DNA of 64,000 nucleotides, taken from positions 9,176,001 to 9,240,000 of the forward strand of contig CM073193.1 of the NCBI GenBank assembly GCA_037042915.1. The letters run 5' to 3'. The position numbers and the translations under genes were made by a program. The first letter of the stretch is position 1. Each line of letters starts with the position of its first letter. Below the pieces are notes generated by a model that searched no databases, was not told the DNA's origin, and saw only the letters and a program-made list of their open reading frames with translations. Shown in pieces: positions 10,485 to 64,000 of this stretch. The stretch comes from Auricularia sp. M13 (Eukaryota; Basidiomycota; Agaricomycetes; Auriculariales; Auriculariaceae).

Positions 10485-11767
10485 GGATACCGCAGAGCTA
10501 TAAGGGATGCACGTACCCGGTAGGATATGAGATTGGTGGTCGGCGTCGGTGGCGAGGAGTAAACGAGATGATGGCGCTGAAGTCCTGGTCCATGCCCCGC
10601 AGAGCTAGGTAGTTGCGCGTATCCGGGTGGCTCAGTAGAAAGAAGCTGTGGCTGGAGATCAGGACCGGACGCTCAAACCGCTGCGTCGGGAGTTGGCGTA
10701 CAGAGCAATAATGGATACACGTACCCTGATAGATAGTCGGCGTCGGTGGCGAGGAGCAAGCGAGATGATGGCGCTGGAGTCCTGGTCCACGCCCCGCAGA
10801 GCTAACTAGTTGTGCGTATCTGGGTGGTGTAGAGCGTGATCAACGGTGAAGCTGTGGCTGGAGATCAGGACCGGACGCTCAAGCCGCTGCGTCGGGCGTC
10901 GGTGGACGCAGAGCTATAAAAGATACACATACCCGGGGGGCCATGAAATTGTCAATTGGCGTCGGCGGCGAGGAGTAAACGAGATGATGGCGCTGAAGTC
11001 CTGTCCAGCATCAGGCATCAACGGAAAATGCAGGGTTGGGAAGAATTCGCGTACCAGGACGTCGCTGAGTCAGGCGCAGACGTGTAGTTATATTGGGACG
11101 GGAAGGCTGGGCTGCGCGACATAGGCAACGACGATATTGTTCTCGGTGTGCCAGGCGGGCTGATAATGTAGAGCTGGACGAATATTTTGCGTGCCCCGGC
11201 CATCGTGGCCGCGCGGTCAACGTCCGGGGCGAGACCGGGGCGGCGATGAGGACCGATGACGCTCAGGCCGGTTCGCTATATCAGGCGTCGGCGGATATCG
11301 CAGAGCCAGAAAACGTTCACCTACCGGGCGGGTTTAGAAGCGGCGAGGCCGGACCAGGCGATTATGACCTACGACGCTCAAGGCCTGTTCGCTGTGTCAG
11401 GCGTCGGCAGACAACGCAGAGCTCGAAAAACTCACGTACCCCGGACAGTCGTGGAACGCGCAGTCGGCGCCAGCGGCGAGGCCTGGACGGCGCCGACAAT
11501 GCTAAGCACTGCGTGGCACGGGCGCCGCATGGTCGTACTCGACTGTGACCGGGCGGATGGCGGGCGGATGATGCTAGGCATGGCCCGACAATCGAACGGT
11601 ACTGTATTGCGGATATTGAGGCGGACAACACGGCATTCGGACTTCGGGCTAGGCCGGACTGACAACAACGGCTCTCGACGAATTGCTAGTGTTTTCCTAC
11701 TAGAGTATGATTACATCGGGTAGCCCATTTCTCGCGAATAATCCTTTGCACCACAACATTGCCCGCG
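10485..11767. repeat. Repeat family A, locally tandem
   Basis: A unit of roughly 200 bp recurs imperfectly: the phrase GATGATGGCGCTG occurs near 10570, 10764 and 10984, each preceded by a GCGTCGG...GCAGAGCTATAA-like segment. Further diverged units (GCGTCGGCGGATATCGCAG, GCGTCGGCAGACAACGCAG) lie at 11280-11440. The distal part (10816-11767) is the left arm of the outer inverted repeat. Several frames are open but none looks like a conserved protein. Confidence 0.7.
10816..11767 (+). repeat. Outer inverted repeat, left arm
   Basis: This segment matches, nearly base for base, the reverse complement of 63049-64000 (positions pair as x to 74816 minus x). The right border is sharp: beyond 11767 the two sides differ. 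The left limit is set only by the window end on the partner side. The segment includes, in reverse, the last 68 bp of the WD40/membrane gene at the other arm. Confidence 0.85.
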
Positions 11768-12270
11768 TAAATCTCGCGCCTGCTCACGACGAGTCACGAC
11801 GGCGCTGCATACGCAAGGCGAGCCGGGCTCACCCGAGCACGCCCACACGCTGACGCCTTCCCGCCTGCTCCTCTACATCTTCTTCATGACACTTCCGGTG
11901 GCGCGGATTCTGTGCACGCCTGCCGGCGCCCTTCATCTTGCTCTTATTATTCTTCTCGCTCTCCGTCGACGTAGGAAATTGATCATGCCCTCGATGCGCT
12001 CCGACTATCCTCACGTGGACGCGGGCACGCTAATCACCCTCCAATACCTCGTCTACCTCCGGCGAGGCGCGGCCTTCTGCCAGCACAGCGCGCTGAACAA
12101 CCGCAGCACATTCCCGCCGTCGCCGATGCCCAGTCAGCGTTCTGACTCTCGCCCAGCCTTACCGCTGATAGAATGACACGGGCAGCTCGTCCAGTTCTGT
12201 CTCGTACGTCTACGATGGAGGCAGCGCTTGTATGCGTTTAAGTGCGCAAACTTGCTCCCTACACATCAGT
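11768..12270. other. No supported gene
   Basis: I see no protein-like frame with splice support and no repeat structure. Confidence 0.4.
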
Positions 12271-12642
12271 TCACTCGCGGCGGCCCCTGCATGGACGGTG
12301 CTCTGGTTCAAGGCTTGTGGACTTCCCCTGCAGCAGCGCGTTCACGTGCAGACGCAGTTCGTCACATACTGCAAACGCGATCGGAGCCGCAAGACCTCGC
12401 GACGAAGCGCAACACTCCAACATGCTGCGGCTGTCGCGCGTGCCGCTAAACCCGGCGCCGTACTCGGCAATACTTTTGAAATCACGACGGATGGCCGTCA
12501 GGTCGAGATTATGGTCTAGCTCATGAGAAAATTGTGCGTGACTTGCGGACCATTTGACACAAGTGCAACTTGAAGTGTATTTGATCATCTTGTTCTTTTG
12601 TAGATATGCGTGTTCCTGTACGAATTCCTTCCCTGATCTCAC
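12271..12642 (-). CDS. Possible exon of unknown gene
   Basis: The minus strand is open for 123 codons. The central part (from ELDHNLDL to HVNALLQ) reads like folded protein, while the first 35 codons look like intron sequence. The neighbouring exons are not evident, so this is at best a fragment. I do not recognise the family. Confidence 0.28.
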   Translation of the reverse strand: MRSGKEFVQEHAYLQKNKMIKYTSSCTCVKWSASHAQFSHELDHNLDLTAIRRDFKSIAEYGAGFSGTRDSRSMLECCASSRGLAAPIAFAVCDELRLHVNALLQGKSTSLEPEHRPCRGRRE

Positions 12643-14775: not shown

Positions 14776-15568
14776 ATGCCGCGGCCTGTGGCCGGTGATC
14801 TGTTTGTAGACGTGGATAGTCGAGAAGAACGGTGGGTGCGGACGAGACGAGGGAGGCCAGGGGAGGCCGCGCCCGGGCAACGCCCAAGCGCGAGGAGAGG
14901 GAGGCGCCGGCGGCGGTGGGGTTGGGAAGGAGGAGCGCGCCGTGCCCGGGCAGGAGCCCGAGCGTGAGGAGGGGAATGCACAACGGCGCCGGCGCCTTCC
15001 GCGAGCACGACGCCGTGCGGGAAAACAGAACAGGTAGAAGGTTGAGGGGGCGTGGAAACACCGCCTAGATGAAAATACTGTGCGTACCTTGGGTGTTCTC
15101 TGTGCAAAGAGCATGTCTGGTGAAGGTTTCACTGAGTGTGGTCTGTAGATGGCTTGTGGAAACGGCCGGCGCCGTCGAACGAAGAGTTTCGATTAAATTA
15201 ACCCAAATCCCCGACAAGAGCATCTAGGTCAACGCCGGCGTAGCGAGCAGGGCTGTGAGAAGGAGCGGGCGCCGGGGGGGCAGAGCCTGAGCGCGAGAAG
15301 AGTAAGCACGTCGACGCCGGCTCCATCTGCGAGCACGGAGTCATGCTCGCAGCGTCGAGGACAGTGGTCGCCTCCTGCGCTGCAAATGCGTCCGCTGCGA
15401 GTCCGGGCGTGAAGAGTGGGTCAGGCTGAGCGACCGTCTGAAGAGATCGCGGGCAGCGGCTAGTTTCTTGACGAATCCAACGGCATCGTCGCGCCAGCAT
15501 CCGCAACCGCGAGTTCGCCATACCGTGCGCGACCGACTACACCGAAGCCCGATACACCCGCTGCCGCC

Positions 15569-16068
15569 CATGGATCCGGATACCGCCGCACTCGACGAGA
15601 CTGCGCCAAGCGCGGTTGCACCAGTCACCGGTGTAGCTGACGCTCAGAACCAACACCCCAACAGCGCGCGTGGTCCAGAAATGGGCTCCAGTTCCGTAGC
15701 CCCGCCAAAGAGCCTTATTACAGACAGCCCAAGACGCGAAGTTATAGCCCGCTCATGGTTCAAGGCGAGTTTTTCGCGCTTCCCTCTGCTCGCATGTGAC
15801 GGTTACTCGATAGCACACCTGGTTCCGCATCTACGCGAAGCTTTGTCGGTACTTCGACGCTTTCATCCGCTTCCTGGGCAAGATTCCGCTCATCCGCGAG
15901 CTCCTCGGCGCCGTATTACTTTACCTCGCTGGCGAAGTGGGAAACTTGATAGACTCGGCCGGCGAGCGAGTCATCATCACGGTATTCGCGGGGTTCCCCA
16001 TGGTGGTGATATTCTTGAAGATTGTGAATGCGGTCAACACGGCCCATGGAGCCCCAGAGTCGGCGTAG
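15569..16068 (+). CDS. Small membrane protein, left copy
   Basis: ATG at 15569 opens a Ser/Pro-rich N-terminal exon (MDPDTAALDETAP). A second exon beginning after TAG at 15815-15817 reads TWFRIYAKLCRYFDAF, then a hydrophobic C-terminus (ELLGAVLLYLAGEVGNLI, then VFAGFPMVVIFLKIVNAV) ending in TAG at 16066-16068. This predicts one or two membrane segments. The donor joining the exons is not clear; one phase-0 candidate is GTTATA near 15741. An identical copy is in the other arm. I do not recognise the family. Confidence 0.45.
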
Positions 16069-16242
16069 ATGTAGAATGTTTATCTGTTGATCAATCTATT
16101 CCGATCGTTGTATCATCACTCAAAGGAATTCCTATTATGCCACACAGAAAAGAATCACAGCTATGCAAGGTGTCAGTACGAGATGTAACGTTTGCAGCCT
16201 GATGAAAGCTTACCGCGGGAACGGGCAGCTCAATCAATTGTT

Positions 16243-16563
16243 TCATGACCTAGCGATAGGAAATCCGTAGTCGTCTGCGCTGGTAGAAATCGTGCCGCGT
16301 TCACCCAGCGCCGCAACGAGCGTGACCAACATCTGCGCCAGGAGCTCCTCCACCGACACCATTCGGGCAGTAGGCAGAACGAGCAGGTGGTGGTGCAGCG
16401 TGAGGAGCGCGGTGGGCGAGTGGCGCGCGACCGACTTCATGGTTCCCAGGAAGGCGCTGGCGAGACAGAAGTTATTCGGGTCCAGCGTCGCCGGGTGCAG
16501 GTGCAGGTGCTCGAGCATGCCGTAGAGGTGCGCCAAGGAGAGAGCCGACGCCGCCGTCTTCAC
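16243..16563 (-). CDS. Small helical protein exon, left copy
   Basis: The minus-strand frame (106 codons) is strongly helix-forming (for example LAHLYGMLEHLHLHP and SVEELLAQMLVTLVAAL) and reads like a HEAT-type or other alpha-solenoid piece. It appears to continue upstream through an open frame into the array region. No donor or acceptor is certain. The same frame is identical in the other arm. The function is unknown. Confidence 0.4.
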   Translation of the reverse strand: MKTAASALSLAHLYGMLEHLHLHPATLDPNNFCLASAFLGTMKSVARHSPTALLTLHHHLLVLPTARMVSVEELLAQMLVTLVAALGERGTISTSADDYGFPIARS

Positions 16564-16719
16564 GGTTGCCGTCTGAGTTGAGCTGGGCGGTGTGGCGGCC
16601 GATAAGACTTGAACACTGCATAGATAATGAGCACGCTGTGCATAGGGGCATTTTGGAGGGCTCGAGCGCGCAAATTGCAGCGCTAGTTGCTACGCTCGAC
16701 TTGCTGCACAGCTGAGCCG

Positions 16720-18620
16720 TCCGCCCTATCACCAACGTCTGGTGTGGGTCTCGCGCTTCGCTCGAGAGCAAGCCCCGCATATCTAGCCGCCGCCGCCTGA
16801 CGATTGAAGATGCCAACTCGCCGCAAAGCTGGCGCGTACACCCGATCGCCGACGTCCGGCGTGGGCCCCGCGGTTCGCTCTGCAGCAAGCGGGCCTCTCA
16901 CGGTTCCCCCAGCCCTCGCGCGCAAAAGAAATGGCGACATTATATACTCACAATCTCCGTCTGAGCCGAACTTGGTGGCGGGAGGCGCTGGAAAGATTTT
17001 GGCACTGCGAAGGTGGTCAGCTTTGAAGCCAATAAATCGTAGAGGCCGGGGCGAGGACGGGGCCTGAAGCGACGCGCGGCTGGCTGCAGAGCTCGTTGGT
17101 ACACCCGATCGCCAACATCTGGCGTGGGCCCCTCGTCAAGCACAGCAGCGTGCAGCCATGACATCTGCCGTCATGCGCAGAGATAGTCCAGCGCTCGCTA
17201 TCAAGCTGCTGGCACGTACACCCGATCGCCGACGTCCGGCGTGGGCCCCGCGGTTCGCTCTGTAGCAAGCGGGCCTCTCACGGTTCCCCCAGCCCTCGCG
17301 GGCAAAAGAAATGGCAATATTATATACTCACAATCTCCGTCTGAGCCGAACTTGGTGGCGGGAGGCACTGGGAAGATTTTGGCACTGCGAAGGTGGTCAG
17401 CTTTGAAGCCAATAAATCGTAGAGGCCGGGGCGAGGACGGGGCCTGAAGCGACGCGCGGCTGGCTGCAGAGCTCGTTGGTACACCCGATCGCCGACGTCT
17501 GGCGTGGGCCCCTCGTCAAGCACAGCAGCGTGCAGCCATGACATCTGCCGTCATGCGCAGAGATAGTCCAGCGCTCGCTATCAAGCTGCTGGCACGTATA
17601 CCCGATCGCCAACGTCCGGCGTGGGCGCCGCGCTTCGCTCGAGAGCAAGCCCCGCATATCTAGCCGCCGCCGCCTGACGATTGAAGATGCCAACTCGCCG
17701 CAAAGCTGGCGCGTACACCCGATCGCCGACGTCCGGCGTGGGCCCCGCGGTTCGCTCTGTAGCAAGCGGGCCTCTCACGGTTCCCCCAGCCCTCGCGGGC
17801 AAAAGAAATGGCAATATTATATACTCACAATCTCCGTCTGAGCCGAACTTGGTGGCGGGAGGCACTGGGAAGATTTTGGCACTGCGAAGGTGGTCAGCTT
17901 TGAAGCCAATAAATCGTAGAGGCCGGGGCGAGGACGGGGCCTGAAGCGACGCGCGGCTGGCTGCAGAGCTCGTTGGTACACCCGATCGCCGACGTCCGGC
18001 GTGGGCCCCTCGTCAAGCACAGCAGCGTGCAGCCATGACATCTGCCGTCATGCGCAGAGATAGTCCAGCGCTCGCTATCAAGCTGCTGGCACGTATACCC
18101 GATCGCCAACGTCCGGCGTGGGCGCCGCGCTTCGCTCGAGAGCAAGCCCCGCATATCTAGCCGCCGCCGCCTGACGATTGAAGATGCCAACTCGCCGCAA
18201 AGCTGGCGCGTACACCCGATCGCCGACGTCCGGCGTGGGCCCCGCGGTTCGCTCTGCAGCAAGCGGGCCTCTCACGGTTCCCCCAGCCCTCGCGCGCAAA
18301 AGAAATGGCAATATGATATACTCACAATCTCCGTCTGAGCCGAACTTGGTGGCGGGAGGCACTGGGAAGATTTTGGCACTGCGAAGGTGGTCAGCTTTGA
18401 AGCCAATAAATCGTAGAGGCCGGGGCGAGGACGGGGCCTGAAGCGACGCGCGGCTGGCTGCAGAGCTCGTTGGTACACCCGATCGCCAACGTCTGGCGTG
18501 GGCCCCTCGTCAAGCACAGCAGCGTGCAGCCATGACATCTGCCGTCATGCGCAGAGATAGTCCAGCGCTCGCTATCAAGCTGGCGCGTATACCCGATCGC
18601 CAACGTCCGGCGTGGGCGCC
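16720..18620 (+). repeat. Tandem array of 380-497 bp modules, four copies
   Basis: The phrase ACTCACAATCTCCGTCTG recurs near 16946, 17326, 17823 and 18320 (spacing 380, 497, 497). Inside the modules a short core, CCCGATCGCC then AACGTCYGGCGTGGG, occurs at 16841, 17104, 17221, 17484, 17601, 17718, 17981, 18098, 18215, 18478 and 18592, plus a degenerate copy near 16724. On the minus strand each ACTCAC is a perfect GTGAGT splice donor, and the core translates in one frame as PTPDVGDRV. No whole gene can be assembled from it. Confidence 0.85.
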
Positions 18621-19109
18621 GCGCTTCGCTCGACCGCGAGTGACATTCTTCGTGCGAGACAGGGGTGTATGATGTCCAAGGAAGAAGAAAACTCACAATC
18701 TAGCTGCATGTCGAAATGACCGGCCTGCGAGCGCGCTCTTGCCCGACCTCTGCGCGTGCGAGTATTTGAACATGTTGCCTGCGCTGCAGATGCCCGCACA
18801 CCTAGCGTCTAGGGTGACGTCGCAGAGCAGGCCACAGGTTGTCGTGTACGTGGATTGGCATTCGACGCCGTTGGTGGTGGCTGGTAAGATTTCGGCGAAA
18901 GCCGGATCTGCCAAGAGGCGGACTTAGACGAATCCGAGTCCCGTCCCGAAATGCTGTACGCGCTTCATGATCACGCACACAAAGGTCCGCAAGGTCAGTC
19001 CCCGCCATCACGTGATGCAGCAAGGTGGCTCGCAAATCCCGACAATGGCACGATGGTACAATGGCACAAAGAATTGCCTTTTTGGACTTCATGACTGCAG
19101 ATGCTCGCA

Positions 19110-19117
19110 TATATAAA
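19110..19117 (+). promoter_or_regulatory. TATA box of the 247-aa gene
   Basis: TATATAAA lies 21-28 bp upstream of the ATG at 19138. It is a good TATA consensus with the short leader seen for other genes here. Confidence 0.5.
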
Positions 19118-19137
19118 GGCTGCCATAGGATAGTGTG

Positions 19138-20029
19138 ATGGCCGACACAATGCCACCTACCTCTGCGGAACATCACTTGCGATTGCCAGTATCGCCCGGA
19201 TTTTGTGGGGTCACCGTGGAGCGTTCTCCATCTCTCAGCCACTCACTGTTTACTGAACCGACTACTGTGAGCTCTCATTCTGTGAGACGCGTTGGCTCTC
19301 ACACTCTCGTATAGACACAACCAAACGAGTCCACGTCCGATGATGATTTGATGTCTACCGATGAAAGCGAGGTCAACAAGGAGGATATCACGATCCGCAT
19401 GACTGGACCGTGGTCCCACGAGGCATTCGGGCACAAAATAGTCCAAGAACTCAACGCATTCGGCAGAGACCATGCTCTCGCAACTATGCTAAACACGTTC
19501 CCGAGGCTGGATTTTGACAACGCGCTCCTGTGGCTGGAATATATCAAGACCACTCATGACCGTGGTTGTTCGTTCAATAGCGCCGTGATGGATAGCTTTC
19601 GTACCGTGCCATGGACGCAGCTTTTGGTCAGTGACGGTAACAAAAGCTGCGTTGCTGTAAGTATCCATCCTTTCTGTTATTCCCAGGACTGACCGGGTTT
19701 ATAGATGGAGCTAGGACGATTGCTGACAGCCATAAAGAATAGAAGAGGAAGCACGCGCGACGAAACAAGCTCTGCGGCCCCATCTCGCACATATACCGCG
19801 ACTCCGTTACCCCCACAGATGAAACAGCCAGCCCCGCGCAGTAATGGTGGCCGCACAGAAGCCCTTGTTGGTTCCGGGACGTCTTCCAGGGTGAGTCATA
19901 TATGCGGGTTGACGGAGCACCCGCCCAAATTGCATCAAGCAGGGAAAGATTCCACGCGGAAACATTGTCAACGCGATCTTGGGAGCTACCACGATCAAAT
20001 CTATGAGAATTGAGCAGCGATTGGGATGA
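19138..20029 (+). CDS. Hypothetical protein, 247 aa, four exons
   Basis: Exons 19138-19266, 19315-19656, 19705-19890 and 19943-20029 are all phase 0 and join through introns of 48, 48 and 52 nt with GTGAGC, GTAAGT and GTGAGT donors. The result is 247 aa ending at TGA 20027-20029. The N-terminus is Ser/Thr/Asp-rich. Residues ~60-150 form the ordered part (for example TGPWSHEAFGHKIVQEL and FDNALLWLEYIKTTHD). The C-terminus ends in a short conserved-looking GKIPRGNIVNAILG segment. I do not recognise the family. The clean splicing and TATA box make it a convincing gene. It starts 190 bp beyond the repeat arm. Confidence 0.72.
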
Positions 20030-20224
20030 GCAGTCTGCTTTTCTTGTTCCGATTTAGCGGTGACCCGTGTAGGACCTGACCAGCATGTATATTCCCGTTT
20101 TTCCTCAGTGCCCATAATTCTGAATCGAGGCGTTTGCATAGTTACGTGTGAGATATTGAAGAGTTGATGCTGCCGCCACCGAAGGTAGCTCCAAAATCCA
20201 TGCGCCGCTGATCAGCTTGTAGTC

Positions 20225-22567: not shown

Positions 22568-25500
22568 TCATTGACCCGCACTGCCCTGAAACCAGTGTCC
22601 TGCAGGTGGTCCCTGTAGAACCCGCTCGATTCCCCGAGGGAACCCCGTCATGGTAATCGCCCGTACGACTTCCTCTCCCTTCACTGCAATGCTCAATGAG
22701 CCTCGCACGGTGTCAAAGTAAATCATCTCGAATAAGACATTGCCTTCGATAGTATCTCCATTGTCAGATAATTTCTCCCAACTACGTCTCGATTTCTGCT
22801 CGGCACGTCGTCAAACAATGCTTTGTCCTAGCGACGAGAAAGACTTACCATCCATCGAATTGCTTCACGCCGCGCGAACCGCTCCTCGGTCACCCGGCCG
22901 ACGAGATTGAGCTGTTCCCTTTTTCCCACTCAGTTTATCCAAACTGTCGTTGCTCGCGTACCAAATCACCTTGCGCTGCTGCGTGTATACCCCACCCTCA
23001 CTGTCACTATGTACTAGCAATACAGTTCCAGTCATCGAATCATACATTCATAAGAATTATTCTTACGAGTTTTCTACAGCGAAGGGCGGCTGTGGTCTCC
23101 TGCAGGGCAACGGCGCCATGCGTCCGCGGTGGTCATAATAGCTTTGCTGGTAGCAAACCCAGGCGCTTCGTTCAAGCTCGCGAAACTCGTCAGATTCGAG
23201 CGTGGGCGCGTCGTTGTCGGGCCCCCAGTGTTCTTTCCAGGGCCCGAGCATTTCGCTCGCCCGAGGCCAATACCTCATGAGCTCTGCGAAGGACCGCAGG
23301 GCGAGCAACCGCTCTCGCGCATTGCTCGAACACAGCCAAGCTTCGCGAGTCGGCTTGACCATCTCGATCCCGCCTGCCCAACAGTCCTTCACCAACCCAT
23401 AGTACTCCAGGTTTGACGTGGCCTGGAGCTCGGGGATGTTGCGGTACCAGCGCCGCATGCTGATGGCAAGGTCGAGCATGTCGTAGCGGAACTCAAGCTC
23501 GGCGAGCTCCCAGACGATGTAGCTCACCCAGTTGAGCGGTAGCGACGCCTCTGATTCCCACGGCGGCGGCGGCAGCTTGTGGCCGTCGAAGGTGCACTTG
23601 TCCTGCAACTTTTCGAGCAGTGGCCTCAGCGAGAGCAGCCGCTCGGCTTCAGCGACATCGACGGCCTCCTGGCCTTCCGTCATCGTCGTGTGGGCGACGT
23701 CGAGCCCTAGACGCTTGACTATCGGCCGCGACTCCCTGTTGCGCATCACGCCTTTGAGGATTTCTCGCCATTGCCTCGTTTCGAATCCCTCGTCCTCGTC
23801 GATCGGGTCGCTGGCGATCTTCGCGAGATAATACGGCCGGATTTGAAGCCACCTGAACAGGCCCAGGAAGACGTTGCGCTTGCTGGTCTTCTGCTGGTCG
23901 CAGCGGTTCGACCACGCGTTCGCAAAATAGCCAAGCGTGGGCATCTTGTGAATAGTCTTCGCGCCTTTCACAAGCTGCGGGACGGGATTCGGACAGCCCG
24001 CAAGTTGGGCTTCACGTTGTCTGCTCGTGTCGACGAACTCGGCCGCCTCCGTCCCAACCTGGAGCGTGCTCGGCCACCAGTCCGGGAGATCGTACTGCGG
24101 TAGCCAGTGCGTGGTCATTCGAATCACGATACCCTTCAGCTGCGCGCCCTCGGGCATGGAGTCTAGGGTCTTCTGCAAGAGAGCATGCCTTTGCTGATTT
24201 CGCTTTTTCCGCACAGGCGAGGGATCGTCCAGCTCAGTAGGAGGATCTTCTCTTGCTGTTAGCTTGAATCCCGAGATAGTTCTACACTTTGCATACCTTT
24301 CCGTTTTTGCGGCAAGCTGCCGAACCTCATCACACCGCTGTCCGACACTGCAGGCTGGTCCGCAAGCGCAATCGCTATCTGCGGGTGCTGCGTCTGCTCT
24401 CCGACGTTTGCCTCGCCCTTCTCGACCTCCATATCCGCGAGTGACGCTGCGTGCGGCTGTTCGAGAATCTGCTGAGCACCGCGCGCACCAGCGTCGTCTT
24501 CTTCGTAGTCGGGCAGGTCGGCGCCGTCGTCGAACACGGCGGCGTACGTTGGCTGCTGGACTCGCGGGACATCCTCTGACTGGGAGATCGACGGTGGGGA
24601 TATCGGGAATGTCGAGGAAGTCGCGCCGTTCGAATCTGGCATCTGGTCCTGTGACACAGTCGCAGGCGGAAGATTTTCCGCGGTCGTCGTCTGTGACGCG
24701 CCGTCCTGTGCTCGCAGGCAGAACATTTCCCGCTTGGACCGTCTCTGACGCGCTTTCTTGCTGCTGGGCGGAATCTTTGCTGGGGTGGGGCTCCAGCATC
24801 CAGCGCGCTGGTCGCCTTTGCTTTTGCGACTGAGCCAGCTTCCTCATGGCCTGCTCATGCAGCTGGGCTTCGTAGTCGGAATCGTCCTCCTCCGGTTCCA
24901 GACGAGCGTCGTCCGCCTTCACCCAGCCATCATCCGACGCGTCCTCCTGGCCGACGTGAGGCGACGCGCTGGCCGATGTCGAACGCGTCGGCGAGCTCGC
25001 GCCAGTGTTCTTGGGTGGCGTATCGGGTCGCCGGTCTGTGACAACCTCTGCGCCAGCCTCACTTGGAGGCTGCCATGCTTCATCCTGGAACGCAGAGTCC
25101 GGCTCGTCGACGTCAAACACAGGCGGGGAGCCATCTTCGACGCCTTGTCCTTGCTCGGCTTGAAACCTGGGTATTGTGAGCTCGTGATAATTTTCCTCGT
25201 ATAATCGCGCGTACCCTGCGTGTTCTTCCTGTTGGAAAGCCGCCATCGCCTCCTCCTGCTTCTCCTTCTCCTCCTCCTGCTGCTTCCGCGTCGCTGCTTG
25301 CGCCGCGGAATCGTGCCCTTTGCGCGGCGCATCGTCAAGGACTATCGGGTCCAACTCGGGGACTAAGCCATATGACAGAACCGGCAAGCCGTCTTCACAA
25401 GATAACCGACTTCCGTGCCGGGTCGCGTCGTACTTTTCGAGCAGCCACACGGGTATGCCGTACTGGGCCCACATTGCCGCGGCAACGCGCTCGTCGACGA

Positions 25501-26960: not shown

Positions 26961-27229
26961 CGCGCTTCCCGGATTTCAGTCTGTATCGGGCGGTGTAGCA
27001 TCAATGAGCATTACTGGTCTCATTCGAGAACCAGCTGCACTCACATCCGTAGTATCAGCTGATCTGGGCTGCGATGCCGCCGATCCAACTTGAGCGTTGT
27101 CTAATAAATGTCTGCGCTTTGTACTCACACTGACACGCCTTGTCTGCGGCAGGCGGTGAGTGTTTTGGTGCGCTGTGAAATATAATTAGCCTCGAAGACG
27201 ATGGCTTTGAGCGTAGGCAAGTTTCGCCT
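26961..27229. other. Upstream region of the large gene
   Basis: This should hold the promoter of the minus-strand gene starting at 26960. I see no clear TATA box. It ends where the family B array begins. Confidence 0.3.
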
Positions 27230-28700: not shown

Positions 28701-29041
28701 ACCTCCTGGCACCGTTGACGGGGTCCTTTCATGACACCTCACTTCCCAGTGCCTATTAGACAATTTCGCTGTCAAACTGAGGTCAGAAATTGCTGACCAA
28801 GACAATACGGTGTGATTATTCTCACCCACAGCTTCGGGGCACCAGCTATCAGTTCGAATACCTCCGTGAATGAGCTGCTGCACAGATTATTGTAATTCTC
28901 TGCCCATTAAATCTGTCTTCAATTCTCTGCGGCGTCTATACCACGATACTTTACACTGTGCCCGCGGATCACGTGAGCTGTTGACGCGCCGACGCGTCCT
29001 GCGCAAATCTGCGCCTTCGCTGCTGGTTCGCCGTAAGGCTT
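28701..29041. other. No supported gene
   Basis: I see no protein-like frame or repeat. Confidence 0.4.
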
Positions 29042-39993: not shown

Positions 39994-40138
39994 TAGGGCG
40001 AGGACCGGGGGTAGGGTGGGGTGCGGCTATAAGTCTACGCCATGGGTTCCGTCTGGGGTATTGCCGACAGCAACTCACACAGCAATTCGAGCGGGCGGGT
40101 AGTCGCCGAAGTGCGACGGCACATTCGCCGACAGGGCT

Positions 40139-49814: not shown

Positions 49815-50012
49815 CGTGCCTGAAGACGAACCAAACGTGTAGATACATGTAGAGCACTGCGGCTTCAAATGTACAAATGTTGACACAATGTTTGCGTCGT
49901 GGGGCACCGTTTCACAAAGGTAGAAGCGCTTTACGCGCGGATGCGGTGCGCCCACCGAGTCGTCTCGCTCCGGCTTTACGTCCTACCCACCATGGGCCTG
50001 GAAGTGTTGCAG
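49815..50012. other. Short intergenic stretch
   Basis: This is the 3' region of the repeat-protein gene; nothing else is seen. Confidence 0.3.
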
Positions 50013-50138
50013 CATATCAGCCCGAACTGCGCGCTGGGACGACTGCACGAAACCTGTTTCGTGTAGGCCGTACTCGTGTGACGGAAAAGGCGTTTTGACG
50101 CCTTGGAAGCACGGCGACGCGCAGTGCGGGCTGATGTG
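50013..50138 (-). mobile_element. 126-bp MITE-like element, copy 2
   Basis: It is an inverted copy of 29042-29167: starts CATATCAGCCCG and ends CGGGCTGATGTG, with the same two internal hairpins. It lies 57 bp from the inner repeat's right arm. Confidence 0.65.
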
Positions 50139-50494
50139 AGGCCATACAGCCGGCCGACAGACGACGGCCCACTGGCAGATACCGTGACGTCGCCCGGGAC
50201 GGGACTCGGATTCGTCTAAGTCCGCCTCTTGGCAGATCCGGCTTTCGCCGAAATCTTACCAGCCACCACCAACGGCGTCGAATGCCAATCCACGTACACG
50301 ACAACCTGTGGCCTGCTCTGCGACGTCACCCTAGACGCTAGGTGTGCGGGCATCTGCAGCGCAGGCAACATGTTCAAATACTCGCACGCGCAGAGGTCGG
50401 GCAAGAGCGCGCTCGCAGGCCGGTCATTTCGACATGCAGCTAGATTGTGAGTTTTCTTCTTCCTTGGACATCATACACCCCTGTCTCGCACGAA

Positions 50495-51810
50495 GAATGT
50501 CACTCGCGGTCGAGCGAAGCGCGGCGCCCACGCCGGACGTTGGCGATCGGGTATACGCGCCAGCTTGATAGCGAGCGCTGGACTATCTCTGCGCATGACG
50601 GCAGATGTCATGGCTGCACGCTGCTGTGCTTGACGAGGGGCCCACGCCAGACGTTGGCGATCGGGTGTACCAACGAGCTCTGCAGCCAGCCGCGCGTCGC
50701 TTCAGGCCCCGTCCTCGCCCCGGCCTCTACGATTTATTGGCTTCAAAGCTGACCACCTTCGCAGTGCCAAAATCTTCCCAGTGCCTCCCGCCACCAAGTT
50801 CGGCTCAGACGGAGATTGTGAGTATATCATATTGCCATTTCTTTTGCGCGCGAGGGCTGGGGGAACCGTGAGAGGCCCGCTTGCTGCAGAGCGAACCGCG
50901 GGGCCCACGCCGGACGTCGGCGATCGGGTGTACGCGCCAGCTTTGCGGCGAGTTGGCATCTTCAATCGTCAGGCGGCGGCGGCTAGATATGCGGGGCTTG
51001 CTCTCGAGCGAGCGCGGCGCCCACGCCGGACGTTGGCGATCGGGTATACGTGCCAGCAGCTTGATAGCGAGCGCTGGACTATCTCTGCGCATGACGGCAG
51101 ATGTCATGGCTGCACGCTGCTGTGCTTGACGAGGGGCCCACGCCGGACGTCGGCGATCGGGTGTACCAACGAGCTCTGCAGCCAGCCGCGCGTCGCTTCA
51201 GGCCCCGTCCTCGCCCCGGCCTCTACGATTTATTGGCTTCAAAGCTGACCACCTTCGCAGTGCCAAAATCTTCCCAGTGCCTCCCGCCACCAAGTTCGGC
51301 TCAGACGGAGATTGTGAGTATATAATATTGCCATTTCTTTTGCCCGCGAGGGCTGGGGGAACCGTGAGAGGCCCGCTTGCTACAGAGCGAACCGCGGGGC
51401 CCACGCCGGACGTCGGCGATCGGGTGTACCAACGAGCTCTGCAGCCAGCCGCGCGTCGCTTCAGGCCCCGTCCTCGCCCCGGCCTCTACGATTTATTGGC
51501 TTCAAAGCTGACCACCTTCGCAGTGCCAAAATCTTCCCAGTGCCTCCCGCCACCAAGTTCGGCTCAGACGGAGATTGTGAGTATATAATATCGCCATTTC
51601 TTTTGCGCGCGAGGGCTGGGGGAACCGTGAGAGGCCCGCTTGCTGCAGAGCGAACCGCGGGGCCCACGCCGGACGTCGGCGATCGGGTGTACGCGCCAGC
51701 TTTGCGGCGAGTTGGCATCTTCAATCGTCAGGCGGCGGCGGCTAGATATGCGGGGCTTGCTCTCGAGCGAAGCGCGAGACCCACACCAGACGTTGGTGAT
51801 AGGGCGGACG
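50495..51810 (-). repeat. Tandem array, right arm, three long modules
   Basis: The core appears as GGCGATCGGG near 50543, 50655, 50919, 51035, 51142, 51406 and 51680, plus a degenerate copy near 51800. GATTGTGAGTATAT (splice-donor-like) occurs near 50815, 51313 and 51575. Confidence 0.8.
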
Positions 51811-51964
51811 GCTCAGCTGTGCAGCAAGTCGAGCGTAGCAACTAGCGCTGCAATTTGCGCGCTCGAGCCCTCCAAAATGCCCCTATGCACAGCGTGCTCA
51901 TTATCTATGCAGTGTTCAAGTCTTATCGGCCGCCACACCGCCCAGCTCAACTCAGACGGCAACC

Positions 51965-52285
51965 GTGAAGACGGCGGCGTCGGCTCTCTCCTTGGCGCAC
52001 CTCTACGGCATGCTCGAGCACCTGCACCTGCACCCGGCGACGCTGGACCCGAATAACTTCTGTCTCGCCAGCGCCTTCCTGGGAACCATGAAGTCGGTCG
52101 CGCGCCACTCGCCCACCGCGCTCCTCACGCTGCACCACCACCTGCTCGTTCTGCCTACTGCCCGAATGGTGTCGGTGGAGGAGCTCCTGGCGCAGATGTT
52201 GGTCACGCTCGTTGCGGCGCTGGGTGAACGCGGCACGATTTCTACCAGCGCAGACGACTACGGATTTCCTATCGCTAGGTCATGA
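51965..52285 (+). CDS. Small helical protein exon, right copy
   Basis: It is identical in translation to the copy at 16563-16243. Keeping an open frame in both arms is expected from recent duplication and is not independent evidence of function. Confidence 0.4.
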   Translation: MKTAASALSLAHLYGMLEHLHLHPATLDPNNFCLASAFLGTMKSVARHSPTALLTLHHHLLVLPTARMVSVEELLAQMLVTLVAALGERGTISTSADDYGFPIARS

Positions 52286-52459
52286 AACAATTGATTGAGC
52301 TGCCCGTTCCCGCGGTAAGCTTTCATCAGGCTGCAAACGTTACATCTCGTACTGACACCTTGCATAGCTGTGATTCTTTTCTGTGTGGCATAATAGGAAT
52401 TCCTTTGAGTGATGATACAACGATCGGAATAGATTGATCAACAGATAAACATTCTACAT

Positions 52460-52959
52460 CTACGCCGACTCTGGGGCTCCATGGGCCGTGTTGACCGCAT
52501 TCACAATCTTCAAGAATATCACCACCATGGGGAACCCCGCGAATACCGTGATGATGACTCGCTCGCCGGCCGAGTCTATCAAGTTTCCCACTTCGCCAGC
52601 GAGGTAAAGTAATACGGCGCCGAGGAGCTCGCGGATGAGCGGAATCTTGCCCAGGAAGCGGATGAAAGCGTCGAAGTACCGACAAAGCTTCGCGTAGATG
52701 CGGAACCAGGTGTGCTATCGAGTAACCGTCACATGCGAGCAGAGGGAAGCGCGAAAAACTCGCCTTGAACCATGAGCGGGCTATAACTTCGCGTCTTGGG
52801 CTGTCTGTAATAAGGCTCTTTGGCGGGGCTACGGAACTGGAGCCCATTTCTGGACCACGCGCGCTGTTGGGGTGTTGGTTCTGAGCGTCAGCTACACCGG
52901 TGACTGGTGCAACCGCGCTTGGCGCAGTCTCGTCGAGTGCGGCGGTATCCGGATCCATG
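52460..52959 (-). CDS. Small membrane protein, right copy
   Basis: It is an identical copy of the frame at 15569-16068, with the same Ser/Pro-rich start and hydrophobic C-terminus. The same unresolved exon joint applies. Confidence 0.45.
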
Positions 52960-53666
52960 GGCGGCAGCGGGTGTATCGGGCTTCGGTGTAGTCGGTCGCG
53001 CACGGTATGGCGAACTCGCGGTTGCGGATGCTGGCGCGACGATGCCGTTGGATTCGTCAAGAAACTAGCCGCTGCCCGCGATCTCTTCAGACGGTCGCTC
53101 AGCCTGACCCACTCTTCACGCCCGGACTCGCAGCGGACGCATTTGCAGCGCAGGAGGCGACCACTGTCCTCGACGCTGCGAGCATGACTCCGTGCTCGCA
53201 GATGGAGCCGGCGTCGACGTGCTTACTCTTCTCGCGCTCAGGCTCTGCCCCCCCCGGCGCCCGCTCCTTCTCACAGCCCTGCTCGCTACGCCGGCGTTGA
53301 CCTAGATGCTCTTGTCGGGGATTTGGGTTAATTTAATCGAAACTCTTCGTTCGACGGCGCCGGCCGTTTCCACAAGCCATCTACAGACCACACTCAGTGA
53401 AACCTTCACCAGACATGCTCTTTGCACAGAGAACACCCAAGGTACGCACAGTATTTTCATCTAGGCGGTGTTTCCACGCCCCCTCAACCTTCTACCTGTT
53501 CTGTTTTCCCGCACGGCGTCGTGCTCGCGGAAGGCGCCGGCGCCGTTGTGCATTCCCCTCCTCACGCTCGGGCTCCTGCCAGGGCACGGCGCGCTCCTCC
53601 TTCCCAACCCCACCGCCGCCGGCGCCTCCCTCTCCTCGCGCTTGGGCGTTGCCCGGGCGCGGCCTC

Positions 53667-54360: not shown

Positions 54361-54797
54361 GCACTGCAGAACAATGCCCCGTGCTCCATGCGCCAAATAA
54401 CTCTCAAGGTACGTGCTTGATTCATTTTCTCTCTTTTTCGACCTCAACGCTGGCGCCGCACGCACCTGCCGCACGCCAAGTCAGGCGATGCTCAAATCAC
54501 AATCACCGGACACAAGGCTGAAGAGTCTTCGCCCCCGCGCGTTCGGCGCGAACCTCAGCCTGTAGAAAAGAGTGTCCGAGCACTGCTATTGTTGCTGCGT
54601 ATCACTACCTATCCGCGTTGCCCATCACGCTAATTGAGATTACGCAGGTCGGAAGGCGCACGAACTGGCAATGCCTCCTCGTGAACACTGGGCTGTATGG
54701 AGCGATGAATTTCGGGAATGCGGGTTGAACATGCGGGGACTTTGTACGCATATGACAATACAGGGAACAACACTGGCCTATTGAAATCTAGGAACAT
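54361..54797. other. No supported gene
   Basis: I see nothing here beyond the 3' flank of the MYND gene. Confidence 0.4.
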
Positions 54798-56497
54798 TTA
54801 AATTCGCGTCTCGACGTAGCGAGCCAGTTGCTCGCGCAGGGGGCCGTCGATCGCGAGACCATCCAAGCGGCTCACAATCTCCGGCAGTAAGCTGCGGTCA
54901 CCAAAGCGCGCAGAATGAAAATCGTGCAGGAATTGCAGTTGCTCAAGCATGGCGAACATGCCTTGTTGGCCTGCGCACGAATAAGTTCAGACTGAAATTT
55001 ATGGCAAGATGACTTACTCGTGCTGGCGCCCTCTGCCGCATGTTCCCCGCGTCGGGGATCGGATGAGGGAAGGCGGTGGCCAACCAAATCATCGTAGATG
55101 GCGGCGAGTTCCTGGATGTCGAGCCCGTGCGAGCGGCACGCGGCCTCGAATTCTGGCGTCTCCGTGCTCACGGGCGCTGTAGCAAGGATAGGACCGAGCC
55201 GTTTGCAAAACACACTGTGAGGCCGAGAACCTCCGCGCCAATGCTCTAGCTGGCATTCCCTGGAGCAGTACTGAAAGACCTTGCACGAGCCGCATAGACG
55301 CAGGCGTGTGATCTCGTGGGGATGCCTCAAACAGTTCGGAGCGCTGCAGATTCTGCGTACGGCCAGCGTTTTTAGAAGTTTTTTGAAGTGACCAAAGCAT
55401 CCGCCGTATTTGAGCTGATCGTCGAACATATGATCTACAAGATGATCGGGCATGAAGACTAGCGACTGGTCTCCAAGTGACGTGTGTAGTTGTAAGCCGA
55501 AGTTTGAGAGTTGTCTCTTCACCACGGAGTCTCGACACGACCTAATAGCTGCATAAGTGGACGGAAGGACCTCCTGCTCGAAGCCAGCGAGGAGGAGGTG
55601 CCATTCAGGCCATTCGTCGATGCCGAACATAGGAAGGTACTCGAGAAGCTGGGCTACGTGAGCCATGTACTGCGCTGGATCCCGACGGTCGCCTTCTATT
55701 GCCGTATGCGGACTGCTTAGAGCATCTGCGCCGGAGGTGAGAATCGCGGAGATGGTGTTCGCAAACATGGATCGCGCGTCGTCGTCGACAAACTCGGCGT
55801 AGAATGTCGGGCGGCACCAGAGGAACACCCTAACAAAGAGGTAGACGACGGACGAATCGTCGCTGATGGCAAGCCAGTAGAGGAGGCCTCGAAAGCTTGT
55901 AGGCCCGGAGATAAGGTCCTGCGTAGCTGCAGGCCAAACAGGGTGAAACTTGAATTTCTTGGCACCGAGCAACTGGTGAGTGATCTTTGGAAAACAGGGG
56001 ACGATTATGGCGCATAAACTGGCGACGAGCCTTAGTGCGCAGTCTTCCTCGGTATAGCACGCCGCCGCTCGGCGATGAAGAGCATTCGCCTGGCCGGGGC
56101 AGCCCCGGATAATTGGGAATAGGATGCTCCCAAGTGCCGAGTTGTCGTCGTCTCCGCGCTCTGTGGTGAGGAAGGCCATGATTCGAGAAAGGAAATGGCC
56201 GTGTCCCTCACGCAGAAGCCGAAGGCTGTGATCGAGGACGCCGGGGTACAGGTGAACCTGTTCCAGCAACAGCACACAGACTGGACATATGCTCGGCCTG
56301 CGAAGATCCTGGAGACCATGTTCTAACTGAGTCACGAATTGATCCAAACCCGCAGGCGTGAGGGCGGGGAACTCGAGGAATAATGAGCACCGACATAGAG
56401 TTGATGATGGTGCAATGAGCTCACCGCGGGGAGGTTCAAGTTGGAGATCACGCTCCTGATGAGGAGTGACATGTGTAAAAGCGCGTGGAGAAGACAA
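54798..56497 (-). CDS. MYND-type zinc finger protein, ~550 aa, two exons
   Basis: Exons 56497-55018 and 54970-54798 join through a 47-nt intron and give 550 aa. Residues ~384-430 form a MYND finger: ICSAPNC, LRLCGSCKVFQYCSREC, HWRGGSRPHSVFC (C-x4-C, C-x2-C, C-x3-C, H-x4-C). MYND domains bind Pro-rich partner proteins. The preceding ~380 residues are a helical region typical of the many agaricomycete MYND proteins of unknown role. The C-terminal exon is amphipathic helix. An alternative 5' end exists: ATG at 56547 reads a hydrophobic start and can splice in phase 0 through a 53-nt GTGAGC...GAG intron into FPALTPAGLDQF. I prefer neither strongly. Confidence 0.82.
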
Positions 56498-56547
56498 GAG
56501 ACGAGGACGATGCCGATGAGACGAGCAACCTCGTACAGAAAAGCCAC

Positions 56548-56891
56548 AAAGGCTATAGCCGATATATATGTCAGTGTAAAAATCCCGAGGGAGCTATAAT
56601 GCGGTTTAAAAGATGGTTATTCGTCATGGAGAATGAGCATCTCAGTCAGGAGCGACTACGGCGAAAACTGGAAAGAAGCGGGCGTCGTGGACGATGACAC
56701 GACCGCCGGCGCGCTGTTGTCCCATCGTGCAACGTAAAATGTTCCCCATTCCCTCTGCGGTGGGTAGTCCCGGAAGGATTGTACTGGTCGTCTGGCCGTG
56801 CGCTCCACGCGGTCGTGAGAACGCAGCACGGAAAGGCGCACGCCGCCACGCGTTGTCGGACCGGCCAGCTGCAGGTCATCCCCAGAAAGCG
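56548..56891. other. No supported gene
   Basis: An AT-rich GATATATATG near 56559 could serve as a TATA element for the minus-strand MYND gene. Otherwise I see nothing. Confidence 0.3.
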
Positions 56892-58076
56892 AGAGAGTTC
56901 GTCCACGCCCGACGTGCGGTAAGTCCACGGCCAGTGCCTTAGTTAGGAAGCCGGAAACATGAGGTAGCGGGCACGGAGGACGCTGTGGGGTACTCCGGAG
57001 TGAAGGGTGAAGGGGTGAGCAGTCTAGGGCGGCTAGAAGGTTGTCGATCGCGATACACGTGTCGAGAGAAACACGTTGCTCTATGAGGTTGGAATTCGAC
57101 CCCAATCGGGGCGCGGAAGGACGAGAGCACGTGATGTGACAGGTTGGTGTCACTCCGGCGGGGAAGCGCCGATAGAGATGCAGAACCGCGGTGGCCGACA
57201 GACTCAGACTGGGCATACCCCTTATGACCCCGCCAGCAATTTGCGACGTGGAGGACAGGATTATGCGCACATTGCGTTGAGCTGGTGCGTGTTCGGTTGC
57301 TCTGGCGGACGCTGCGTCGTTTCGCAGTTCTACCGCGCGCTGACCGAGTCTACGAACCGGCCACAGGCCACAGGCCACAGGCCACAGGCGCTGCCTTTCC
57401 AACCCAGGGTCGTCGTCCAGAACCCTCGTCGCCGTCGTCGTCATCGGCGCTTTACGCTGCGCTGGTGCGTCCCAGGATATTCCTGTGCTACCTGCGATCG
57501 TCTGACCCAACTCGCAGACGCTGGCCGCCGCAAAAGAAGCTTATACGGCCCGACTACGACCTACAAACCTGACACAGGCCGCAACGTGAACGCGACTGCG
57601 ACGCCCTCGTCGCCGTCGTCATCATCGGCGCTTTACGCTGCGCTGGTGCGTCCCAGGATATTCCTGCGCTGCCTGCGATCGTCTGACCCAACTCGCAGAC
57701 GCTGGCCGCCGCAAAAGAAGCTTATACGGCCCGACTACGACCTACAAACCTGACACAGGCCGCAACGTGAACGCGACTGCGACGCCCTCGTCGCCGTCGT
57801 CATCATCGGCGCTTTACGCTGCGCTGGTGCGTCCCAGGATATTCCTGCGCTGCCTGCGATCGTCTGACCCAACTCGCAGACGCTGGCCGCCGCAAAAGAA
57901 GCTTATACGGCCCGACTACGACCTACAAACCGTCCTCGACGCCGTCGTCGTCAGCGGCGCAATGGTGTGTCCCTGGTTGCTCCTGCGCCGCCTGCGCTTG
58001 CCTTACACAAATTATAGATGTTGTTCGCCGAGAAACGATCCCGTTGCGCGCTGCAAACCGGCCACAGACCACTCTA
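56892..58076 (+). repeat. Direct repeat copy 2 (1.19 kb)
   Basis: It is nearly identical to 40139-41519 in the same orientation, with one fewer 181-bp unit (units from about 57421, 57602 and 57783) and a ~14-bp deletion near 57180. The start and end borders are the same as copy 1. Confidence 0.85.
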
Positions 58077-58242
58077 GCGCTGTCAACTCAGTCGCTGTCA
58101 GCGGCGACGGCTCGATTCCCGTTATCTTTGTTTCGTGGCATTTGTTAACATTCCGCGCAGAGCTAACATTCTCTTTTCCGTTTTCTTCCTTTGCCGGCAG
58201 TCACATCTCGGCAGTGACTGAGGACAATGCAAGATCACCCGG

Positions 58243-60669: not shown

Positions 60670-60687
60670 TGTAACCGCAGACACCTG

Positions 60688-60695
60688 TATATATA
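60688..60695 (-). promoter_or_regulatory. TATA box of the F-box gene
   Basis: TATATATA on the minus strand lies 19-26 bp upstream of the ATG at 60669. Confidence 0.45.
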
Positions 60696-61310: not shown

Positions 61311-61497
61311 GCAACGGTCACGCGAGCTCACACCTATTTCCATACACAAGGCTGCTGCCACGACGAACAACTCGGGGACGGCAAGCACAAAGGCGACGAG
61401 CAGCGGCAGATTTCGGGGTCACCGGACAAATCGGCAATCAGCGGTGCAGGACCCCTTATCTTTCCTCTGCATCCATCGCCTCGGTTCTACGACGGCC

Positions 61498-63116
61498 ATG
61501 TTCCCTGTCTCGCCACAGACTTACGAGCTATGGTTTACCGCGTCCACCCATACCAAGCCCATCAGCTTCCTGTCCTTCTCGGACAGCGGTGAGCTTCTGG
61601 CTAGTGGAGGTAGGCGGTATTGGATTGCGACGTACAATTCTCAATTAGATTTGCCACGTCCAATTTCTCACAATCTAGATGACGAGGGACAAGTCGTGAT
61701 CTGGTCCCTCGGATCCGGCAGGTGCTTTCAGGAGTTGCGATGTTCTTCGGCAGCGATTTCTTGCTGTTGGGGCGGTGACAAGGAGCTCTTCATCGGGTGT
61801 GGCAATGGCGAAATCCATTTCTATGAGCATTCATCCGTTCATGTAAGCCATTGAGGCTCGTACATCACATCACTCTCTGACTGGTCGATAGAATCGATTC
61901 GAGCGTAACGCGCGATGTGCGGTCAACGAGACGAAGCACAGCGTGTCGGCATTGAGCATTCACGGCAACCGCTTAGCTGCGTGCTCGGGTACCATGGTAC
62001 ATTGTTTAGCCATCGAGCCCACAAGTAAGTAAATCCAATACCGATACGCCGCCCAGACATATGTGTGATGCAGCTCTTCGTCTCGTACGAGCGTGGCCGA
62101 TTGACAAAGTGCGGGAGATGAGGAGCGTTCATTTTGTGGATAGACAAACAATTCTGTCGGTATCTCTCAGAGAGGGTGTATGGTAAGTCGGCCATCATGA
62201 TGAATTCATCCCGCCCGACGCATCTACAGCGTCATGTTGGACGTTACGGAGCCCAACCGCCCCCTTTGGCGCCGAAAACTCCCACACCGAGTGTAAGCTT
62301 TGAGACTGACATTCAAAGAGATGGGTAACCATGATTCTAGGGGAGAGAGTGCCTTATCCCCAGACAATCGCTTCTTGGCTACTACCGACCTCGCTGGGTC
62401 AGTCGAGATATATGAGATCACACCGACCGGCCTACGTCGCTTCCGAACATTTCCTTCGCCGGTGGATATGAGCTGCAATTATCCTCTACAGGTCTGCTTT
62501 GCCGAAGGTCAATCAATCATTGTGTCTGGAAGTGGTGCGGGCGAGGTCCGCCTGTGGGATATGCAGCGGGGGAGAAAGACTGTCCTGCTGCATGGACGAC
62601 GTAAGGACATTCTTTGCGTCGCAGTGCTCGATAACTGACGAGGTCGCAGCACGTTCAAAGGCTGCCGAAGACGACTTCCAGCTGACCCAAGCTGTTGCGG
62701 TACGACGAGCACTAGACCTTAATGATTTATTGCTGAAGTAAACGTCATAGGCACATTCAACGCCAGTTTTCCATCTTCTGGCCAGCGCCTGTTCAGATAA
62801 CGCCAGGCATACCATTAAGATCTGGAGGCGCCCGAATAAGGTAGAATCGAACGCAATAGAGCGTCAGGCCGCTGACAGCGTGTCAAAGTCGTCCACAGAC
62901 ACAACGATAACTTGGGCCGGCGATCTCGAGCCGATGGTGGTTGACAATCCGGTGTACTTCCTTGGTGCCTTTATTGCATCATCGGTAATTTGGGCCACCG
63001 TTTACATGCTATATCCTGGCGTCTTTGAGGTCATAGGAGAGCGACTTGCGCGGGCAATGTTGTGGTGCAAAGGATTATTCGCGAGAAATGGGCTACCCGA
63101 TGTAATCATACTCTAG
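61498..63116 (+). CDS. WD40-repeat protein with C-terminal membrane segment
   Basis: ATG at 61498 starts MFPVSPQTYELWF. Exons end and begin at 61609/61679, 61842/61892, 62024/62074, 62182/62230, 62292/62341 and 62600, with introns mostly 47-49 nt (one 69). WD40 strands are visible: LSFSDSGELLASG, EGQVVIWSLGSGR, LFIGCGNGEIHFY, FLATTDLAGSVEIYEI, IIVSGSGAGEVRLWDM, LLASACSDNARHTIKIW. A linker and one membrane helix (VYFLGAFIASSVIWATVYML) follow. The joint between 62600 and about 62780 is not resolved. The last 22 codons lie inside the outer inverted repeat. Such proteins are probably scaffold proteins anchored to an internal membrane; the exact role is unknown. Confidence 0.78.
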
Positions 63117-64000
63117 TAGGAAAACACTAGCAATTCGTCGAGAGCCGTTGTTGTCAGTCCGGCCTAGCCCGAAGTCCGAATGCCGTGTTGTCCGCCTCAA
63201 TATCCGCAATACAGTACCGTTCGATTGTCGGGCCATGCCTAGCATCATCCGCCCGCCATCCGCCCGGTCACAGTCGAGTACGACCATGCGGCGCCCGTGC
63301 CACGCAGTGCTTAGCATTGTCGGCGCCGTCCAGGCCTCGCCGCTGGCGCCGACTGCGCGTTCCACGACTGTCCGGGGTACGTGAGTTTTTTCGAGCTCTG
63401 CGTTGTCTGCCGACGCCTGACACAGCGAACAGGCCTTGAGCGTCGTAGGTCATAATCGCCTGGTCCGGCCTCGCCGCTTCTAAACCCGCCCGGTAGGTGA
63501 ACGTTTTCTGGCTCTGCGATATCCGCCGACGCCTGATATAGCGAACCGGCCTGAGCGTCATCGGTCCTCATCGCCGCCCCGGTCTCGCCCCGGACGTTGA
63601 CCGCGCGGCCACGATGGCCGGGGCACGCAAAATATTCGTCCAGCTCTACATTATCAGCCCGCCTGGCACACCGAGAACAATATCGTCGTTGCCTATGTCG
63701 CGCAGCCCAGCCTTCCCGTCCCAATATAACTACACGTCTGCGCCTGACTCAGCGACGTCCTGGTACGCGAATTCTTCCCAACCCTGCATTTTCCGTTGAT
63801 GCCTGATGCTGGACAGGACTTCAGCGCCATCATCTCGTTTACTCCTCGCCGCCGACGCCAATTGACAATTTCATGGCCCCCGGGTATGTGTATCTTTTAT
63901 AGCTCTGCGTCCACCGACGCCCGACGCAGCGGCTTGAGCGTCCGGTCCTGATCTCCAGCCACAGCTTCACCGTTGATCACGCTCTACACCACCCAGATAC
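63049..64000 (-). repeat. Outer inverted repeat, right arm (cut by window end)
   Basis: It is the reverse complement of 10816-11767, with only minor differences. The left border falls inside the WD40 gene, 68 bp before its stop codon ends. The right limit is beyond the window. Confidence 0.85.

Follow-up and report, generated by a model that had tools for sequence, protein, structure and literature searches.

The subject of this study is a 64,000-nucleotide window of the Auricularia sp. M13 genome (contig CM073193.1, called C1 below, positions 9,176,001-9,240,000; window position 1 is C1:9,176,001), in which two pairs of inverted repeats, A and B, are nested one within the other. We consider it probable that these pairs belong to a recombination-prone 124-kb cluster of local segmental duplications, with copies in both orientations that are still recombining with one another. 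Ectopic gene conversion and, probably, break-induced replication (BIR) would have shaped the cluster. The region is of a known kind and no new genetic system, and it is more complex than the preliminary description of the window had it.

Repeat pairs A and B within a 124-kb mosaic

A had been described as an inverted pair, and window 10816-11781 matched 63035-64000 in inverted orientation at 99% identity. The position was right and the length too short: the block spans window 10468-11781 on the left, and on the right 348 bases of it lie outside the window. The full arms (C1:9186468-9187781 and C1:9239035-9240348, 1,314 bp each) are separated by 10 substitutions in 1,313 aligned bp and two 1-bp gaps. 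The first 23 and last 14 bp hold 9/10 substitutions, and the intervening 1,277 bp hold one.

Pair B, 14863-18948 and 50195-53666, was also found to be inverted. Its arms are 4,086 and 3,472 bp long, and they differ by 614 bp because an internal array differs in length. Near-identity within the arms was borne out by A (99%) and by l2, the part of the B arms outside the array, which differs at 1/1,634 positions between the cores called B3 and B4. The B arms enclose 31,246 bp, in keeping with an estimate of about 31 kb. The spacers between A and B, given as about 3.1 and 9.4 kb of unrelated sequence, measured 3,081 and 9,368 bp and had no mutual similarity (word size 7, E 1e-3) under settings that aligned A with A' at 99.1%. 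Since the spacers do not mirror each other, the arrangement is not a simple palindrome, as had been stated. The right spacer opens with a 72% repeat of the l2 start and also contains one copy of a block named C. Judged by their length and identity, the A and B matches are far beyond chance.

The window was then extended by 100 kb on either side and the resulting 264 kb, which contain no N, were compared with themselves. The nested order A-B...B'-A' was present as described, and it proved to be only a slice of a larger mosaic of 124 kb with limits at C1:9,133,572-9,257,382. Non-tandem repeats (at least 95% identity and 200 bp) covered 42,609/123,811 bases (34.4%) inside the mosaic versus 802/140,189 outside, and tandem repeats covered 8.4% versus 1.0%, both comparisons being made within the 264 kb. 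At least eight kinds of block recur in the 124 kb (A, B core, l1, l2, r1, C, D and E), and the suggestion of two independent segmental duplications is too simple.

There are five B cores, of which B1, B2 and B3 lie forward on the left and B4 and B5 reversed on the right. The other blocks are two D, four C (two forward and two reversed), two inverted A, two direct E and two direct F, together with the flanks l1, l2, r1 and r2. The mosaic is bounded by inverted l1 arms 4.4 kb long; counted together with the B array next to them, these form the outermost high-identity inverted match (5.5 kb). Islands occur in parallel order at an offset of 55-63 kb, as B1-D-E-F and B3-D-E-F. Most blocks differ by <0.4% between copies. 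In an attempt by eye to reconstruct the order of events, the arrangement of B, C, D, E and F fitted neither one mirror nor one tandem duplication. An older inverted pair (72%; C1:9118505-9119818 and 9280353-9281680) brackets the whole mosaic, with similar pieces near 9291-9302 kb.

Pair A and blocks C to F as found in the window by self-comparison (window positions; seven-digit coordinates beginning with 9 are on C1):

10468-11781 (+): A, left arm
63035-64000 (-): A', right arm, running on to C1:9240348 past the window
28461-29903 (+): right flank of D, with a direct copy at 9144765-9146203 that differs by 1 substitution in 1,439 bp
40037-41519 (-): one of the four copies of C in the locus, made up of 181-bp tandem units and a flank
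43869-45874 (+): E, with a direct copy at 9156674-9158678 that differs by 6 substitutions in 2,002 bp
46436-47374 (+): F, with a direct copy at 9159281-9160145 that has diverged (82.5% over the longer match)

Flanks of the B cores and the C/MYND pair

The B cores have sharp borders and adjoin different sequences. To the left of the core lies l1 (B1 and B5), l2 (B3 and B4) or another sequence, l3 (B2), and to the right lies r1 (B1 and B3) or r2 (B2, B4 and B5). The combinations from B1 to B5 are l1r1, l3r2, l2r1, l2r2 and l1r2, so that all four pairings of l1 or l2 with r1 or r2 are present. The shared flanks are nearly identical, with substitutions at 4/4366 positions in l1, 1/1634 in l2, 2/1266 in r1, and 0/196 (B4 and B5) and 3/301 (B2 and B4) in r2. 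The common flanks reach unequally beyond the core borders. Within the cores, the right part is identical over 816 bp in B1, B3, B4 and B5, and B2 differs at 3 places. In the left part, a stretch of 293 bp does not vary among B2, B3 and B4; three variants common to B1 and B5 set these two apart from the other three, and B1 and B5 carry two and four private variants, respectively.

As read from the assembled sequence, what lies left and right of the B core is combined independently. Because all four pairings occur, the flanks appear to have been exchanged or copied through the cores.

B blocks and their flanks in the window:

14863-16496 (+): l2, left flank of B3, 1 substitution in 1,634 bp from l2 of B4
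16497-18948 (+): B core B3, motif array, with l2 and r1 flanks (self-comparison)
18949-20214 (+): r1 flank of B3, common to B1 (9139516-9140781), 2 substitutions in 1,266 bp
49894-50194 (-): r2 flank of B4, common to B2 (3/301) and partly to B5 (0/196)
50195-52031 (-): B core B4, motif array, with l2 and r2 flanks (self-comparison)
52032-53666 (-): l2, outer flank of B4, 1 substitution in 1,634 bp from l2 of B3

The preliminary description took near-identity to imply recent origin or ongoing gene conversion. This is supported by a sharp homogenisation tract in another inverted pair, C/MYND (9,168,139-9,171,459 and 9,230,793-9,234,106), the copies of which are about 60 kb apart. There are 0 substitutions over 2,115 bp (one 3-bp gap), followed by 158 in 1,206 bp. 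The boundary, at 9170253/9231989, falls inside the MYND-finger frames of both copies. These frames have 0 changes over 128 synonymous sites and then a synonymous divergence (dS) of 0.325 and a nonsynonymous divergence (dN) of 0.078, the diverged part as cut for these values including about 100 identical bases. Beyond the boundary the pair has the look of old paralogues under constraint, and the identical part bears the mark of a recent transfer. With 0 and 13% divergence meeting at one sharp boundary, high identity in the locus need not mean recent duplication. The sharp tract was seen in the C/MYND pair; for the B and l1 pairs only near-identity was seen.

The C/MYND pair in the window:

55989-58106 (-): homogenised part; no substitution against 9168139-9170253 (inverted), one 3-bp gap
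54793-55988 (-): diverged part; 158 substitutions against 9170254-9171459 (1,206 bp)
54875-56593 (-): MYND zinc-finger open frame (Pfam); paralogue at 9169649-9171451

Genome searches, the motif array and other contents of the window

The 52.1-Mb assembly of 14 contigs (9,420,553 bases in C1) was searched with 966 of the 1,314 bp of A, with l2 extended by the first 204 bp of the B core, and with block C (window 40136-41500). For all three queries, every near-identical match found lay within C1:9.137-9.253 Mb. Genome searches give lower bounds here, and a 10,133-base query from the inner spacer missed its own source place. Scattering of A and B over hundreds of unlinked places, the finding that the preliminary description had set against its own proposal, was not seen in the searches made; the near-identical matches were local. 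The two l1 copies in the locus differ at 4/4,366 positions. Two places on C1 (2665756-2666451 and 2707106-2707801), 41 kb apart and in opposite orientation, matched one window piece with equal score and are perhaps a local inverted pair. Parallel series of l1-like matches at C3:28-56 kb and C6:636-654 kb, several with equal scores, suggest a recent duplication between contigs.

A 22-base motif characterises the tandem array of the B core. A degenerate pattern for the motif had 51 matches in the 264 kb, D copies included, of which 34/34 were forward to the left of 9.205 Mb and 17/17 reversed to the right of 9.226 Mb. Allowing up to 2 mismatches, 97 matches were found genome-wide, 55 in the locus and 42 elsewhere; the reversed-pattern control gave 0. 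None of the 42 copies elsewhere was, without mismatch, one of the variants ending CCGGCGTGGG.

The same motif is found beside a gene family represented in the window by a frame of 1184 amino acids (aa):

23066-26617 (-): 1184-aa open frame, member of a dispersed, unclassified multi-copy gene family (54 matching stretches)
27168-28460 (+): D array, same motif as the B core, upstream of the 1184-aa frame

The search for this family gave 54 matching stretches, and 39/190 candidates were scored. At all nine family loci with an N-terminal match (C1 twice, C2, C3 three times, C8, C9 and C10), an array precedes the first matched codon by 0.68-0.84 kb, with its motif on the opposite strand. Three more array spots on C3 (399, 473 and 487 kb) lack a matched gene, and no matched member of the family was found beside the B cores. 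The B cores resemble the arrays that precede this dispersed, unclassified gene family. The 1184-aa frame had no Pfam match at E 1, and a single-sequence structure model of the protein was uninformative (mean predicted local distance difference test score, pLDDT, 36.8). Its approximately 200 C-terminal residues match 17 further loci among those listed at 30-42%, four with equal score, which suggests a mobile element; the family was left unclassified. C3:0.20-0.49 Mb contains six array spots in both orientations, three loci of the 1184-aa family, and pieces akin to l1 (89%, at 431.8 kb) and to E (68%, at 314 kb), and is possibly a second, related cluster.

Pfam scans covered the 120 longest window frames starting after base 5000. 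In six flank tiles 208 frames reached 100 aa, and the 125 longest of these were scanned as well. The window yielded frames of Tnp2, F-box and MYND type and several other matches, among them Fas_alpha_ACP (1.5e-30, one member), UGSC, MOZART1 and Fer2_2. Seven further l1 frames gave nothing above the Pfam cut-off, and a cyclin-like frame at 31104-31925 was under it. The Tnp2-type transposase frame, 7398-8576 (-), lies just outside the A arm, and its long neighbours (5802-7277 and 8592-9401) had no Pfam match. Adjoining E is a frame, 43214-43807 (+), which by eye we take to be like a retroviral-type aspartic protease; the Pfam tally contained no such family.

The spacer at 29904-40036 is a patchwork, with longer matches (about 200 bp or more) of 66-86% to places on C1, C2, C3, C4, C5, C6 and C11. 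Most of a Sir2-family gene in pieces (probable exons; 38883-40026, -) lies in it, and this stretch matches C4 and C1 at 66-74%. No tRNA was found by ARAGORN and no known RNA family at Rfam gathering scores. A mating-type locus was considered and rejected, as the locus had no STE3 or homeodomain match; STE3 matches lie on C7 and one Homeobox_KN match on C3. Together with the Tnp2, F-box and MYND frames of the window, these matches are in keeping with a basidiomycete.

Mechanism and alternative explanations

In the mechanism we favor, a local double-strand break would be repaired from another copy in the cluster. Homology at both ends would lead to gene conversion, as in C/MYND. Homology in the B core alone would lead to one-sided copying into the donor flank (l1, l2, r1 or r2) over 0.2-4.4 kb, and the copy would then be joined without homology, as in BIR with template switching. 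A nested arrangement like that of the inverted pairs A and B would be a by-product. The four flanks do extend from a common core into unshared flank and end without homology, with ends judged by eye, which is the pattern looked for in replicative duplication by BIR or microhomology-mediated BIR. Crossing over would account for the new flank combinations and not for the doubled flanks, and one-sided copying from the core would account for both.

Several points weigh against this reading. Gene conversion alone does not copy unshared flanks, and therefore a second process, itself unobserved, is needed. The block ends were judged by eye with no statistical test, and no microhomology signature was shown at the joins. 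Island divergence ranges from 0 to 2.3%, with 13% on the diverged side of the MYND pair, and one event cannot account for all islands. The edge-clustered differences in pair A may mark a conversion tract, but may merely come from alignment overrun. Not all relatives are local: B has relatives of 72-77% on C3 and C5, E has its two copies plus the 68% piece on C3, a search with 1.9 kb of l1 gave related stretches on several contigs (those on C3 being the closest, at 89% over 1.4 kb and 91% over 129 bp), and D too has relatives on other contigs. Lastly, there is a small probability of mis-assembly.

An assembly artefact is the alternative we took most seriously, and we felt it to be unlikely. Two nuclear haplotypes, or the isomers of an invertible segment, would have been strung into one contig with alleles mimicking duplications. 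Two isomers would supply all four flank combinations in one contig, and the islands do repeat in the same order at the 55-63 kb offset. In addition, no TTAGGG-type repeat was found in the assembly (0 forward and 0 reverse by pattern; the DNA search skips simple repeats), so that its ends may be incomplete. The islands, however, are separated by sequence without detected similarity rather than by allelic divergence, and B (five cores) and C (four) are present in more than two copies. A dS of 0.325 beside a difference-free stretch is a mixture unexpected for plain alleles, and the 264 kb contain no N.

Several unrelated recent duplications with no later exchange would leave blocks that are simply young, as the <0.4% differences of most blocks might suggest. 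We gave this little credence, since C/MYND shows no substitution up to a sharp boundary and 13% divergence beyond it, and the same borders must have been used repeatedly to give the four B flank combinations. It is just as doubtful that the B-core array, which occurs both ahead of the nine family loci and as bare cores in this locus, is itself a recombination hotspot and the cluster a self-reshuffling cassette system, in which cores place different flanks beside one array.

Very improbable is an ordinary dispersed transposon, B, that landed here several times in both orientations. The motif of the B and D arrays does also stand upstream of members of a dispersed gene family, on six contigs. 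Yet the search with l2 and the core start gave near-identical matches in this locus alone (a lower bound, from a query that took in the first 204 bp of the core), the motif copies elsewhere lacked the variants described above, no target-site duplication was found by eye at the block ends, and the common flanks extend unequally past the core borders.

Regional centromeres with inverted repeats are known in fission yeast and Candida tropicalis. We find a centromere hardly credible here. The mirror-like motif orientation would fit, and in an account of Agaricus bisporus (PMC7473861) the likely centromere is placed at a single cluster of repeats on each chromosome. Against it, the locus has a CpG observed/expected ratio of 1.10-1.26 and a GC content of 55-62%, it contains frames with Pfam matches, and motif arrays are not one per contig.

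A cluster of local duplications still in exchange has partial counterparts in described systems. As outlined for Saccharomyces, the flip/flop region of chromosome XIV is a segment of tens of kb between near-identical inverted repeats of about 4 kb that are kept alike by homogenisation (PMC9731477). The size of the segment, and the size and near-identity of the repeats, are alike here. Flip/flop as outlined there has one pair and two proven orientations, whereas this locus has many blocks in several copy numbers, mosaic order and one assembled orientation. In the DUP-TRP/INV-DUP (duplication-triplication/inverted-duplication) events described at human PLP1, inverted repeats are switch points for homology-driven replicative duplication and inversion of neighboring DNA (PMC4352052). 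Here too, inverted repeats would serve as switch points for replicative copying. The PLP1 events in that description are disease-associated copy-number gains, unlike the 0.2-5.5 kb blocks of differing divergence and unrelated spacers found here.

Fungal chromosome ends can be polymorphic and duplication-rich. The locus ends 163 kb before the contig end, and in this it is like the duplication-rich chromosome ends described for Agaricus bisporus (PMC7473861). Unlike there, the near-identical copies found lie in one 124-kb locus and not at several ends, and no telomere was reached. A literature search of titles and abstract openings surfaced no description of such a locus, and we make no claim of its absence from print.

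Near-identical inverted repeats stand at both ends of two segments, B3/B4 around 31.2 kb and the l1 arms around the 124-kb locus. Inversion of both segments, though unproven, would be expected from such repeats. Because both B arms carry l2 as their outer flank, flipping of the 31-kb segment would leave the set of junctions unchanged.

The 0 and 13% divergence on the two sides of one boundary shows at base level that inverted repeats can be near-identical because old paralogues were recently homogenised. In a small space, the locus also preserves a natural record of how flanks were exchanged around a repeated core. It offers a good test case for the formation of fungal segmental duplications, and a warning on the assembly of such loci.

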